Of a stretch of DNA of 64,000 bases, positions 17,699-48,185 are shown piece by piece. Both the position numbers and the translations under genes were made by a program. Under the pieces are notes generated by a model. It made no database searches and was not told the DNA's origin. It saw only the letters and a list, made by a program, of their open reading frames with translations. Numbering within the stretch: position 1 is the stretch's first letter; each line of letters opens with the position of its first letter. The stretch is from Medicago truncatula (taxonomy: Eukaryota > Streptophyta > Magnoliopsida > Fabales > Fabaceae), in the NCBI RefSeq assembly GCF_003473485.1, contig NC_053045.1:30230494-30294493 (forward strand), written 5' to 3'.

Positions 17699-18273
17699 TA
17701 TGTTAGAGTGTCTTGTTTTTTTTAGACAAAAACAAAACGATATTCCGTAATTTAAATTGATAGAATACATCAAATACAATAACATGATATACATCGCTAA
17801 AAACGTAAAGGGTAAATCTACGAACAAACTCACAACATCCAAGTTAAAACGGCAAAAATGCCTACAAATATTATGATAAAATTTAAATCACCGAAATACA
17901 CATGCTTCTGGATCTGCAACATTGATGTCAAAATCATTTATTGAATATGTGATTGACTGAAGTAGATCTTTCAATATGAACCAAACGAGCACCACAACAA
18001 GACGCGAAATCAAACAACGCCACACAAAAGGACGAACAACACAACACTCAACGACAAAATCACGAATAAAACACAAAAGAAAAAACTTGATAGATGTGAA
18101 AATCACTTATTTAGATAGAAAGAAAGGGAAAAAAGATGCAAAGGGTGATTCTAGATCCAAAATTGACCTAAAACCACCCCTGCTCGATGAGTGAAAGAGA
18201 AAGAAAACTTTGAAAAAAGTTAAAGTTTCTCTCACAAAAAATAACTAGCTCAGCTATGTTAGAGTGTCTTGTT
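17699..18273 (-). mobile_element. Noncoding retroposon 'R1', whole copy with 19-bp TSD
   Basis: A perfect 19-bp direct repeat, tatgttagagtgtcttgtt, lies at 17699-17717 and 18255-18273. The inserted ~537 bp starts on the plus strand with a T-run, which is a poly-A tail on the minus strand. This is the signature of L1-type target-primed reverse transcription. The body has no long conserved frame. It is repeated, with divergence, at 28232-28790 and 45850-46372, and as a piece at 43075-43235. It may be an internally deleted LINE or a long SINE-like element; I have no named family for it. Confidence 0.75.
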
Positions 18274-18688: not shown

Positions 18689-19539
18689 ATGGCAGATCAA
18701 GTGAAGATACATGGATTTTGGTACAGTCCTTTTACTTTAAGGGTAGTATTGACCCTTAAGCTAAAAGGTATACCATATGAGAACATAGAGGAAGATCGTT
18801 TCAACAAGAGTCCTCAACTTCTTCAATACAATCCAGTGCACAAGAAAACTCCAGTGTTGGTTCATGATGGAAAACCTCTATGTGAGTCTATGATCATTGT
18901 TGAATACATTGATGAGATATGGCCACAATACCCTTTGCTTCCTGTCGATCCCTTTGAGAGAGCCCAAGCTCGGTTCTGGGTAAAATATGTCGATGATATT
19001 GTAAGTTTAATCATATGCAATTTTTCTTAGCTTTCATTCGCATACCATTAAAATGTTAATTTGAGTATAGGACAAAACTTAGGTACAATTTTAGTCCTTT
19101 GATTGGTCGAGGTGAAATTGGGACCAAAGAAATTAGAAAGTGACATAGAAAAAGAAATATGAAAATAATAACATACTGTTATCAATTTTTACAGATTCCT
19201 GTAGTAGGTGCACTCTTCAGAAGCGGTGGCGATGAAGAGCGGAAGAATATCATAGCGAAAATCTGGGAACATCTTAAAGTTGTTGAAGAACAATGCATTG
19301 ACTACGAGAAGAAACTTTTTGGAGGAGACACTGTTAACATTGTGGACATAGCTCTTGGATCAACTATCAAGTTTCTTGTAACTATTGAAGATATCATTGA
19401 ATTTAAGATTCTACAAGCTGAGAAATTCCCTCACTTGCATACATGGTTTGATAATTTCAAGAATGTACCTGTCATAGGTGAAAATCTTCCTGATCATGAG
19501 AAACTGATAGCTTTTCTGAAGGCTCTCATACAAAAGTAA
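18689..19539 (+). CDS. Tau-class glutathione S-transferase
   Basis: Two exons, 18689-19000 and 19195-19539, with a 194-bp phase-0 intron (gtaagt...acag), giving 218 residues, the normal length for plant GSTU enzymes. The N-terminal thioredoxin-like half has the tau active-site region [10 protein letters not shown] with its catalytic Ser at about residue 13. It also has [20 protein letters not shown], in which KTPVLVH and E-S bind glutathione, followed by EYIDEIWP. The helical C-terminal half includes [16 protein letters not shown], the conserved 'G.t..ivDia' folding motif. The family conjugates glutathione to electrophiles such as xenobiotics and oxylipins in the cytosol, and is usually stress- or hormone-induced. 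Nothing looks broken. The single-intron layout is typical of tau GST genes. Confidence 0.93.
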
Positions 19540-27950: not shown

Positions 27951-28098
27951 TTGCTCGGATCACATTTATAAGCAAAAGAACAAATTTTTATGTTCATTGA
28001 ATAATTAATGTATTTGATCACATTAATACACCAGATACATTAGCTATTCAATGAACCTAAAAGTTGATTTTTACTTATAACTATGACCGGAGGGAGTA
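27951..28098. mobile_element. Stowaway-like (Tc1/mariner) MITE
   Basis: The right terminus reads 'cttataactatgaccggagggag' followed by TA, the reverse complement of the typical CTCCCTCCGGTC Stowaway end. The left end 'gctcggatcacatttataag' is a degraded match. The halves 'tgttcattgaataattaatgtatttgatc' and 'agatacattagctattcaatgaacc' are inverted copies. About 148 bp, noncoding. Confidence 0.75.
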
Positions 28099-28231: not shown

Positions 28232-28790
28232 CAATTATTCTATGTAATCATACAAATCTAAAGTCGCTAAAAACAAAAAGAATGAACCCGCAAACAAACA
28301 CAACAAACTCACAACATCCATGTTAATAACATAAAACAGAAAAGTATTTATGCCTACAAATACAACTATATTCAATTATCTGGAATACTCATGTCTTCTG
28401 ATCTGTAACGTTGGCGACTCCAAAGTCATTGATCGGATCTGCACTTGCTTAAAGTTAATCTTCAATCCTAAATAAAATAAACACCGCACTAAGACGTGAA
28501 ATAAAAAACACACCGGACAAAGGCGAGAAATCAAAACAAACACAGTTGTGCAGAGACAACGAAACCATAAAAATAAATGAAAGAAAACTGAAAATATGTG
28601 GAAATCACTTATTCAATTAGGATAGAAGGAAAAACAATTCGAAAGGGTGATTTTGGGTCAAAATTAACCCTAAATCACCCTTGTTCGGTAGACAAGAAGA
28701 AGAAAGGGGCTACGCTACGGTTTGAGAAGGAAAGAAGAGAGAGAAAAATAGAGATATGCAAGGAAGTTTTTGTGTTTGTCATAAAAATTG
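28232..28790 (-). mobile_element. Retroposon R1 copy, directly 3' of NCR gene 1
   Basis: Aligns along its length with the R1 copy at 17718-18254: 'gtcgctaaaaac', 'aacaaactcacaacatcc', 'tatttatgcctacaaata', 'ggatctgcacttg', 'ggaaatcacttattca' and 'agggtgattttgggtcaaaattaa'. It has the same minus orientation. Ends are approximate and no target duplication was found. It ends about 115 bp downstream of the NCR stop codon. Confidence 0.7.
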
Positions 28791-28905: not shown

Positions 28906-29167
28906 TTACTCCATCACGAGCTCGCATAATTTATTAATGCACTTCATAACCAAGGCTAACTCTTCTGGACAATCAGCATCAGAAACGCAGGGAATGAGAC
29001 CTATGTTGTAATATAGGAAAGTTACTAAAAGATGATATAACATTGTGTATAAGATAAATTAGAAAATTGGAATGTGGTGTGAAAAGAGACATACCACCAT
29101 TGGTTACAATAATAAATATGGAAAGAAAGATGATCAAATCATAAATAAACATGAGAATTTGAGCCAT
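28906..29167 (-). CDS. Nodule-specific cysteine-rich (NCR) peptide 1
   Basis: Two exons on the minus strand: 29167-29095 and 29000-28906, with a GT/AG phase-1 intron of 94 bp, giving 55 residues. Exon 1 encodes the NCR signal peptide MAQILMFIYDLIIFLSIFII and the first residues after it. Exon 2 encodes the mature acidic peptide LIPCVSDADCPEELALVMKC followed by INKLCELVME. Cysteines are at 29, 35, 45 and 50, spacing C-x5-C-x9-C-x4-C, as in four-cysteine NCRs. Such peptides are secreted into symbiosomes of IRLC legume nodules, where they control bacteroid differentiation. Function for this member is inferred. The net charge of the mature part is negative, so it is not a typical antimicrobial cationic NCR. 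It is too short for ordinary gene finders. Confidence 0.9.
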
Positions 29168-43074: not shown

Positions 43075-43235
43075 GAGTGGAAAACACTTATTTAGATTGA
43101 AAGAAAGGAGAAAAAATATGCAGAGGGGTGATTCTAGGTCAAAAAATGACCTAAAATTAGTCATCCTTGATGAGTGAAATAGAAAGCGAACTTAGAGAGA
43201 AGGTGAAGTTTCTCTCACTAAAAACTAGGACCGTA
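43075..43235 (-). mobile_element. Retroposon R1 fragment
   Basis: Matches the right-hand end of R1 at 18090-18250: 'gaaagaaagg.gaaaaaa.atgca', 'gggtgattctag.tc', 'cttgatgagtgaaa.agaaa' and 'gtttctctcac.aaaaa'. Only this part is present; the remaining ~370 bp on its left is missing or replaced. Confidence 0.7.
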
Positions 43236-45306: not shown

Positions 45307-45849
45307 TCTAGTTATATCAAAAGCAAAAAAAATAGATGATACATTATATTAAAATACTATTTTTTTCGAAAATAATTAAAATAATAATATTAGCTTTCTT
45401 TAGTGAAATTATAATTTTTTTTTTGGTAAAACCAGTGGCATATGTTATGTATTATAAATATATTAGATATTTAAATTGCATATATCAGATATGTATTGTA
45501 GCGTTATTTCATGAGTATAACAGATTATTATTTTATTCTTTGATCAATTGGTCTAATGGCTAAAAATTCACCCCTTAAGTTAAATAAGTGGGGAATTTAA
45601 AATTCAAACTCTGACCCTTTTATATCTTAATGTTTCTGTCAACGGAGTTATACTCACAAAAACATAACATTGTTTTAGGTTTAGTTTGTTTGAATAACTT
45701 TATAAATACATACTAAATTTACTAGTAAAAAATATTAAAAGTAAAAATAGAATAGATAATTAATCTACATAATCAGATAATGTCTTTATCTATTAAGTTA
45801 GCTATAATTATGCAACGATATTTTTGTTTGGCTTTTTTTATTGCGGTAC
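45307..45849. other. AT-rich intergenic DNA
   Basis: No gene seen. A weak SINE-like phrase lies at 45543-45600 ('caattggtctaatggctaaaaattcacc'). Confidence 0.4.
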
Positions 45850-46372
45850 TTTTTTTACTAAAAAGGGACAACGTTTTTTTTATTCAAATTGTTAGAGTAC
45901 GTCGATACAATACAAATTCACTAAAAACAAAAATGATAAATTTGCGAACAAACTCATAACATTCATGTTCATAACCTAAAATGGTAAAATACATAAGCCT
46001 ACAAATATGACTATATTCGGTTGTTTGGAATAGCCATATCTCAGAATTTGTAATGAAAATGTACTTGATCGAAGCTAATCTGAAGCCATATCTCAGGAAT
46101 AGACATTGATTGGATCTGCACTTGATCGAAATTGATTTGACAATCTGAAGTAATCTAACACCACAACAAGACGACGAGAAAACAAAACAAAACCACACCA
46201 AGACGGCGAACATCACACTAAGATGAAGAAATCACAAAAATAACTAAATATATTAAAAGATCACATATTTAAATAAAAAAGAAAACAAAATGATTAAAAT
46301 GGGTGATTTCTGATCAAATTTACGGCTAAACCAACTACCTTTGGTGATAGATGAAGTTGAGTACTTAGGGTT
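45850..46372 (-). mobile_element. Retroposon R1 copy, directly 3' of NCR gene 2
   Basis: Aligns with the other R1 copies: 'aaattgttagagtacgtcgatacaatac', 'cactaaaaacaaaaatgataaatttgcgaacaaactca', 'aagcctacaaatatgactatattc', 'ggatctgcacttgatcg' and 'gggtgatttctgatcaaa'. It has the same minus orientation and ends about 70 bp from the NCR stop codon. It contains an internal near-duplication ('ccatatctcag' and 'cttgatcga' twice). Boundaries are approximate. Confidence 0.72.
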
Positions 46373-46392
46373 ATGGATGGTTGCAGATGCAA

Positions 46393-46443
46393 GACACACA
46401 CACACACACAGAGAGAGGGGAGAGAGAGAGAGAGAGAGAGAGA
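46393..46443. repeat. (AC)n(AG)n microsatellite
   Basis: A (CA) run followed by a (GA) run with one GGGG interruption. It abuts the stop codon of NCR gene 2, so it is likely within its 3' UTR. Confidence 0.92.
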
Positions 46444-46444
46444 C

Positions 46445-46732
46445 TTAGGGCTCAGGGTCATCACTGAAATACGTCACACAGGTCCCTTTATCGCAATGCG
46501 TAGCAATAGCTGTTACATCATGGTCACAATCAGTGTCAAAAGTACAGTTTGGATCTGTTACTGCAATGTCAAATAAGGAAAAAGAATTTTACTATAAGGT
46601 GATAAAATTTTGTGAATAATATAAATTAAAATAAAAAAATGGTGTGAAAAGTGACATACCCACTATACGTTGAGCAATTAATGGAGAAAAAAGGATGATA
46701 AAAGCACAAACATAAAAGAGAATTTGAGCCAT
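46445..46732 (-). CDS. Nodule-specific cysteine-rich (NCR) peptide 2
   Basis: Two exons on the minus strand: 46732-46660 and 46560-46445, with a GT/AG phase-1 intron of 99 bp, giving 62 residues. Exon 1 is the same length (73 bp) as in NCR gene 1 and encodes the signal peptide MAQILFYVCAFIILFSPLIA plus QRIV. Exon 2 encodes the acidic mature part VTDPNCTFDTDCDHDVTAIA and then THCDKGTCVTYFSDDPEP. Cysteines are at 30, 36, 47 and 52, spacing C-x5-C-x10-C-x4-C. An extra Cys at 9 is in the signal peptide. The family acts in symbiosomes of nodule cells. The mature peptide is strongly acidic, unlike the cationic antimicrobial NCRs. Start codon and intron position agree with NCR gene 1, supporting the model. 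Confidence 0.92.
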
Positions 46733-46785: not shown

Positions 46786-46810
46786 TAACAAAAAAAATTC
46801 TTGTTTTATT

Positions 46811-47080
46811 AGCTTCAATTAAATTAGCTCTTGGAAGTTGCAAGAAGTCATTAATAAAATTTTAAATTAATGCTAATATGTCTAATCAATAAGTCAAGTT
46901 TATCTCTTTATATCACTCCATTGATTACTTAACCTTAACAAACACCGCTAATAAAAATCTTTGACAGTCATAAAAGTTCATTATAGTTTTTATTTATGTT
47001 TTAGTCTATCCAAAAAGATAAAATCCTAAAGAAGAACCAATATGATGAATGATGAAAACAACTAGTTTTATATATAACAC
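46811..47080 (-). promoter_or_regulatory. NCR gene 2 upstream region, conserved blocks P1 and P2
   Basis: P1 (46811-46945) contains 'agcttcaattaaattagct' and 'aataagtcaagtttatctc'. P2 (46950-47080) contains 'aaaaatctttgacagtcat' and 'aaaagataaaatcctaaag'. P1 recurs at 47853-47980 and P2 at about 50155-50300. The same order is recognisable, split by a SINE, upstream of NCR gene 1. Repetition before separate NCR loci makes these candidates for nodule-specific promoter elements. Confidence 0.6.
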
Positions 47081-47116
47081 ATTGAAGATGTAACAAACAA
47101 TTTATTATAAATAAAA

Positions 47117-47655
47117 GGGTTAAATATATTTTTGGTCCCTATAAAATTGATACCTTATAAGTTTAGTCCTTACTTAATTTTAATAGTTCTTTTAGTCCCT
47201 AAAAAAATTTCTACACTTAATATTAGTCCCTCCTCAATTCAAATTTGTTTAATTTATGTTTAAACTCTTGAGTTTTTGAATAGTTTTCTGCAGACGTGTT
47301 AAGAACATTACTAAAAGTTCCTCTGCAAAAAATTGTCGCAAAATTTGACTTTTACGTCCCAATTTTGTTAATTTAATCTTTAACTTTTGCCGTTTTAAAA
47401 AATTCATATTTAATTCGTTTCATGTTAAAAAAATCTAAATTTTAGAAAATGAACCTTTCATAGTGTTCTAAACATATCTCAAAAAAATCGTTCAAAAATT
47501 TAAGAGTTTAAGGATAATTAAACAAACTTTGTTTTAAAAGGGACTAAAATTTGAAGTAATTTTTTTTTTGTAGGGACTAAAAAATCTATTAAAATTAAGT
47601 AAGGACTAAACTTAGAAGTTTCCAATTTTATAGGGACCAGAAACATATTTAACCC
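47117..47655. mobile_element. Mutator-like MITE, 'gggttaaatata' family
   Basis: A 539-bp element with inverted ends ('gggttaaatatatttttgg' and '...gaccagaaacatatttaaccc') and subterminal 'ttagtccttacttaattttaatag' mirrored by 'ctattaaaattaagtaaggactaa'. A perfect 9-bp target duplication, taaataaaa, lies at 47108-47116 and 47656-47664. Noncoding. Confidence 0.88.
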
Positions 47656-47696
47656 TAAATAAAAGTATCATTGAGTATTTGTTTTTGTTGAGTAAA

Positions 47697-47980
47697 TTTT
47701 AGTTTGCAGTTATAACTTGTCAATGTGAAAATTGTAAGTAATACCCATATGATTTTTCAATTAAAACAAAAGCATTTAAAAAAAAAATTGTAAGCGGAAT
47801 TTAAAGAAACAAACTATAGTTCAACACAATAATTATATGATATTTTTTTTTTAGCTTCAATTAAATTAGCTTTTGGAAGTTGTAAGAACTCATTAATAAA
47901 TTTTTAAATTAATATTAATATGTCTAATCGATAAGTCAAGTTTATCTCTTTACATCACTCAATTGATTTATTGACCCTAA
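47697..47980. repeat. Repeat block including a solitary NCR promoter copy (P1')
   Basis: 47853-47980 is a close copy of the NCR2 proximal upstream block P1 ('agcttcaattaaattagcttttggaagttg', 'aagtcaagtttatctcttta'). The adjoining 47697-47815 ('caatgtgaaaattgtaagtaat', 'tatgatttttcaattaaaacaaa') recurs at about 52730-52850. No NCR coding exon lies where the promoter would predict (about 47700-47780). Confidence 0.65.
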
Positions 47981-48185
47981 ATCACCCCTGTGATAAAAAT
48001 AGGGTCTTAAAAATAGGAGGATTAAAATTTCAATTAAGTTAAAATAAGGGGATCAAAAGTGCATTTAAACCAAAATATTAACAATTAGAAAGCAACAAGA
48101 GTTGAATTTTAGTAGAATATGGCAGCAAAGAAAAAGCTTATGGAATTGAAATAGAGGCCTTTTAGTTCAATATAAGACAACATTG

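Follow-up and report, generated by a model that had tools for sequence, protein, structure and literature searches.

The nodule-specific cysteine-rich (NCR) genes of Medicago truncatula, which encode small symbiosis peptides, number about 700, and expression confined to nodules is one mark of the family. Members (PF07127) consist of a signal-peptide exon, an intron and a short second exon encoding four or six cysteines; they are both clustered and dispersed, and the second exon is strongly diverged. In the accessible parts of a review (PMC7230169) and a survey (PMC8862580) transposons are described close to NCR genes, and the review proposes that they helped the family to spread. From nearness of this kind transposons have been considered likely agents of NCR expansion, and here we take such nearness apart for a single element, a retroposon that we call R1. 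Its closest described counterparts are plant SINEs and other non-autonomous, LINE-dependent retroposons. The accessible parts of PMC5369179 and PMC4168050 hold no mention of such an element behind NCR genes, and a literature search by title among openly readable papers yielded no title on an R1-like element beside NCR genes.

The window, the whole stretch of 64,000 nucleotides that was analysed, corresponds to C4:30230494-30294493, and the genome searched comprised 429.9 Mb in 42 contigs. The window contains two NCR genes and several copies of R1, listed here with their coordinates within the window.

28906-29167, minus strand: NCR-A, with ATG at 29167, exon 1, intron, exon 2 and a stop ending at 28906
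about 28252-28767, minus strand (sense): retroposon R1-A, behind NCR-A, of an R1 subfamily other than that of R1-B
46445-46732, minus strand: NCR-B, with ATG at 46732, a stop ending at 46445, two exons and one intron, exon 1 being the signal peptide
about 45830-46360, minus strand (sense): retroposon R1-B, behind NCR-B
45440-45829, strand not given: flank beyond R1-B, in whole or part common to five other cassettes, with parts also matching the 3' flanks of NCR genes that lack R1
17718-18255, minus strand: third R1 copy, between exact 18-bp target duplications at 17700-17717 and 18256-18273
43077-43186, strand not given: R1 fragment of 110 bp, 83.6% identical to the copy at 17.7 kb

Read directly from the sequence, NCR-A and NCR-B each have a secretion-signal exon, an intron and a second exon, with four cysteines per mature peptide. 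The peptides, spliced by eye, matched PF07127 (Nodulin_late, cut-off 30.4) with E 4.5e-19 and 69 bits for NCR-A and E 7.6e-8 and 33 bits for NCR-B. Around exon 1 the two genes were 75.9% identical over 174 columns. R1 lies on the 3' side of both, and its sense strand (the strand with poly(A) at the 3' end) is the NCR strand. The coordinates and strands of both pairs thus confirmed what had been claimed from the letters alone, that each gene has an R1 in the same orientation close at its 3' side; the distance from stop to R1 was about 138 bp for NCR-A and at most about 85 bp for NCR-B, where 70-115 bp had been given. The gap between NCR-B and R1-B is occupied by a CT/GT microsatellite up to 46444. 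This may be an expanded 5' pyrimidine tract of R1-B, with the tract reaching the NCR-B stop.

R1 is a poly(A)-tailed element of about 540-590 bp, long for a plant SINE, with target duplications and dispersed copies. When 30 copies of the 17.7-kb type were aligned with their flanks, most had the poly(A) end (on the window minus strand) and a common 5' end, and target duplications were visible by eye in several. Exact duplications were measured at two copies, 18 bp at 17718-18255 and 15 bp at locus L069. The poly(A) end and the target duplications bear out the sequence-only reading of R1 as a retroposon. A search with the 17.7-kb copy gave 40 scored loci (itself included), all matching nearly its full length, and a search with the R1-A pair gave 40 that all spanned R1 almost completely; the R1 loci of both searches were spread across all eight large contigs. 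Pattern counts allowing up to two mismatches yielded 607 copies of the A/B type, against 1 for the reversed pattern, and 320 copies of the 17.7-kb type, against 10 for the reversed pattern. The counting patterns were present in 22/25 and 29/30 known copies, which are the best-matching ones, and the R1 at L059 carries neither pattern, so the genome total of about 900 is a lower bound. Marks of a SINE are a head derived from a Pol III RNA and a 3' end shared with a partner LINE. No open reading frame above 110 aa was found across R1-B, and no Rfam family reached threshold in three R1 loci (L069, L010 and L072), Rfam not being a SINE library. R1 is presumably non-autonomous, copied by target-primed reverse transcription with enzymes borrowed from LINEs. 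R1-like 3' tails of about 100 bp were found in L048, L051 and L068, and at L031 (C7:48.50 Mb) the 186-481 part of an R1 copy occurs twice more behind it, in head-to-tail order. The third window copy has no NCR neighbour; it lies about 430 bp upstream of a gene starting near 18689, which we take to be GST-like.

Very probably, two R1 subfamilies inserted separately behind related NCR genes, and NCR-B together with R1-B was afterwards duplicated as a block in which R1 was a passenger. The first part of this account concerns the relation of R1-A to R1-B. The two were 65.9% identical over 413 columns; R1-A reached 85.9% with its nearest dispersed relative, and R1-B at most 75.2% with any R1 outside its cassette copies. 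The elements are therefore further apart than the genes beside them (65.9% vs. 75.9% around exon 1). Identities and a FastTree tree were computed for 64 copies, three duplicate loci having been dropped, and an IQ-TREE tree for 45 R1 rows, to which L103 had been added and from which 20 of the 17.7-kb type were excluded. In the latter, R1-A grouped with 14 dispersed copies and the R1 of L069 (16 rows with R1-A itself; support 100/100), and R1-B fell in a clade of its six cassette copies (support 100/100). A tree forced to join R1-A with R1-B and its cassettes was 57 log-likelihood units worse and was rejected (p-AU 7e-6), a grouping that was tested after the FastTree tree had been seen.

The DNA past R1-A and past R1-B aligned with the 3' flanks of five other NCR genes (L095, L102, L110, L113 and L131), and R1 was not found in the 3' flanks of these that were read. 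With most of the same flanks the DNA between the NCR-A stop and R1-A could also be aligned, and beyond R1-B the NCR-B flank resumes at 45829. By the alignments and trees, R1-A and R1-B are thus best read as separate arrivals in homologous NCR 3' flanks. No target duplication was recovered for either element, although one was looked for at both, and their separateness therefore rests on the trees and the breakpoints, the latter blurred by deletions: R1-A is without a 3' tail, and about 77 bp after the L102 stop are absent from NCR-B. From comparison with L095, the 3' tail of R1-A and some 70 bp of flank appear to have been deleted. In principle, gene conversion from a dispersed R1 could also have replaced one member of a pair that was identical at first. 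The flank past R1-A also includes a self-complementary, MITE-like stretch (27954-28092; 74.6% over 142 columns). The distal flanks of A and B have a 34-bp stretch in common (29/34; 2/500 shuffles scored as high). We considered this likeness as a sign of one cassette and rejected it; since comparable flank occurs in NCR genes without detected R1, the likeness needs no common cassette.

A third NCR gene, L069 on C7, has an A-type R1 that starts 27 bp past the stop and lies inside exact 15-bp duplications. The idea of a common cassette had been built on the premise that R1 would hardly have hit the same place twice independently; because the R1 of L069 has a target duplication of its own, this premise fails. 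Grouping the R1 of L069 with R1-A was rejected (p-AU 5e-4). At L103 on C2, R1 starts about 40 bp past the stop; its grouping with R1-A was likewise rejected (p-AU 9e-10), and its grouping with the R1-B lineage was not (p-AU 0.45), so that the R1 of L103 and that of the NCR-B lineage may go back to one insertion. Counting R1-A, the R1-B lineage and L069, R1 therefore inserted independently at least three times, each time in sense.

The second part of the account is seen on C4, where NCR-B, R1-B and the DNA past R1 recur in five further copies (L002-L006), one at 25.57 Mb and four near 11.3 Mb, making six in all. Compared with the window copy, the five were 89.7-91.4% identical over the 5' part, exon 1 and the intron, 87.2-92.0% over R1 (88.4-92.2% in the comparison of 64 copies), and 89.1-91.8% over the distal flank of about 180 bp in 4/5, with 73.2% in L003. 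Over exon 2 identity was 62.5-68.3%. Gene, R1 and both flanks are thus homologous and evenly diverged, with exon 2 and the L003 distal flank as the exceptions. When 401 bp of the R1-B distal flank served as the query, the same five places ranked directly after the query itself, and two of them (L003 and L006, at 11.308 and 11.352 Mb) matched only part of the 401 bp. The NCR-B lineage is a real duplicated cassette, spread by block duplication and with six known copies, in which the mature-peptide exon 2 has diverged much faster than its surroundings. The proposal that NCR and R1 were duplicated as one unit therefore holds for this lineage, where R1 and the DNA beyond it go with the gene, and falls for the window pair A and B, for which it was made (p-AU 7e-6). 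L074 at C2:19.9 Mb is a close relative, 87% identical over query positions 119-517; in the 0.6 kb that was read downstream of its stop, R1 was not found.

Several further observations were made around these cassettes. In L004 and L005 (C4:11.32 and 11.36 Mb) the end of NCR exon 2 and R1 are set apart by several hundred additional bases, and on inspection by eye a slightly later stop takes the place of the usual one. The 5' region of NCR-B (46801-46958) is repeated about 1 kb upstream at 47843-48000 (86%), and between the two copies lies an inverted-repeat element (47116-47656) that is 71.9% identical to its own reverse complement; similar extra copies of the 5' region occur near other cassettes (C4:25569368, 11342987 and 11345946). 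In the flank past R1-B, 45525-45657 matches 30 dispersed places at 71-88% (within query positions 79-227) and by eye resembles a tRNA-derived repeat.

The association of R1 with NCR genes was counted from both sides. From the R1 side, we took 55 R1 loci that had not been chosen for an NCR match (L007, L009-L038, L070-L073 and L075-L094), with flanks of about 0.1-1.5 kb, and searched them with an NCR exon-1 profile built with the window genes, L069 and L074, the cassettes not included. On NCR loci the profile gave E values of 8e-6 to 1e-12; at 0/55 R1 loci was there a match below E 0.1, and the five weak matches had E 0.18-0.58. R1 is not an NCR-specific element. From the NCR side, 3' flanks were read for every one of the 39 best relatives of NCR-A outside the window: L069, 20 pieces of 641 bp, and 18 pieces of 311 bp that cover about 60-370 bp downstream of where the stop was expected. 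A stop with the cysteine pattern was located in 8/20 of the longer pieces; other stops were taken from the alignment, some of them approximate, and not all of the 39 loci are necessarily intact genes. Two of the 39, L069 and L103, had an R1 in sense no more than 200 bp past the stop, and L103 is the only fresh find, because L069 was known before the set was chosen. Short R1 matches of only 18-63 bp in L096, L112, L114, L115 and L118 were not counted.

Under a Poisson model with R1 copies evenly spread (927 to 10,000 copies), which ignores any liking of R1 for gene flanks and treats a set of related genes, 0.008-0.09 same-sense cases were expected for the 39 genes, with P(>=2) of 3.5e-5 to 0.004 and P(>=1) of 0.008-0.09. 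A second NCR set, chosen by Pfam as the best 30 of 180 matches, yielded no gene with R1 in sense at 200 bp or less (0/30). On the 3' side of L059 there is an R1 some 220-240 bp away that runs in the opposite sense, and R1-tail matches of about 36-106 bp, likewise 3' and oppositely oriented, were found at L039, L048, L049, L051, L061 and L068. For all 69 genes the same even-spread model gave an expectation of 0.015-0.16 and P(>=2) of 1.1e-4 to 0.012. When the coordinates of 264 R1 places were joined with those of 124 NCR places, nine pairs within 5 kb emerged, with R1 in sense on the 3' side in every one: NCR-A, the six NCR-B cassettes, L069, and on C6 one weak NCR match (E 1.78) with R1 about 1.6 kb off. 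The join is no census, having missed the R1 of L103 and omitted the NCR list of the Pfam search and part of the smaller rows. The expected enrichment of R1 near NCR genes thus does not appear from the R1 side and does appear, within 200 bp on the 3' side, among the relatives of NCR-A; recurrent 3' capture of R1 by NCR genes is suggestive, not proven.

A single ancestral cassette of NCR and R1, duplicated to give both window pairs, is a very improbable origin. It would account for the same side, the same sense and the similar spacing of R1 in A and B, and it agrees with the 34 bp that their distal flanks share at 29/34 and with the homology of both flanks to NCR 3' flanks; but R1-A and R1-B belong to different subfamilies (p-AU 7e-6), R1-A is 65.9% identical to R1-B vs. 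85.9% to a dispersed copy, and flank of this kind is also present in NCR genes without detected R1. Hardly credible at all is transduction, in which R1 transcription or retrotransposition moved the NCR genes. An NCR gene does stand at the 5' side of R1, in the same sense, in A, in B and its cassettes, in L069 and in L103, yet the NCR genes keep their intron, the duplicated unit extends beyond the 3' end of R1, and the target duplication of L069 encloses R1 alone. Neither target duplications enclosing gene and R1 together nor intron-less copies were seen in the loci read.

It is possible, though on balance unlikely, that the 3' ends of NCR genes of the NCR-A/B subfamily are a recurrent site of R1 landing or retention beyond chance, through target preference, through selection against insertions elsewhere, or through the use of R1 as a transcript end. 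The 2/39 relatives of NCR-A set against 0.008-0.09 expected speak for this, as do the insertions at A and B, which bring the independent events to at least three, all in sense. Against it, L069 was known before the 39 were chosen, leaving L103 as the fresh case (P(>=1) 0.008-0.09), and the R1 of L103 may itself share the insertion of the NCR-B lineage (p-AU 0.45); the Pfam-chosen set gave 0/30, with the R1 of L059 in the opposite sense, and 0/55 R1 loci had a nearby NCR exon. More doubtful still is the fuller version, in which an NCR subfamily at least three times gained a same-sense R1 within about 140 bp of the stop and kept it as a putative 3' UTR or polyadenylation region, gene and R1 then spreading by segmental duplication while the peptide exon diversified.

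Separate insertion followed by block duplication is the reading that we prefer. On the evidence of the trees and flank maps, two R1 subfamilies inserted on separate occasions into homologous NCR 3' flanks, giving the look of one cassette. Later, segmental duplication copied NCR-B, R1-B and the DNA beyond to produce the six C4 copies, while exon 2 diversified. R1 would have been a passenger in these block duplications and not their agent or motor, because the genes retain their intron and the copied block extends beyond R1 on either side. Judged by position, a sense R1 tens of bases past the stop is probably part of the mRNA 3' UTR. Such an R1 must be in the transcript unless cleavage precedes it, and at L069 cleavage before R1 would leave under 30 bases after the stop. 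For the NCR-B lineage the order of events reads as insertion, block duplication and exon-2 divergence. The case is also a warning that common flanking elements are no proof of a duplicated cassette. Should the 3' excess extend to the whole genome, R1 would lend itself naturally to testing transposon-derived transcript ends in a peptide family that is growing fast.

NCR-A and NCR-B themselves do not differ from known NCR genes: they have the exon-intron structure and the four cysteines common to the family, and here too clustered and dispersed members and a strongly diverged second exon are found. What they add is a 3' retroposon for which trees reveal the order of arrival. R1 has the same poly(A) tail and target duplications as plant SINEs and other non-autonomous LINE-dependent retroposons, and likewise hundreds of dispersed copies in several subfamilies. 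With the transposons near NCR genes in the accessible parts of PMC7230169 and PMC8862580, proximity is the point in common; in contrast to those accounts, one element was followed here copy by copy, and what it points to is separate insertions in homologous 3' flanks and block duplication with the element as passenger.
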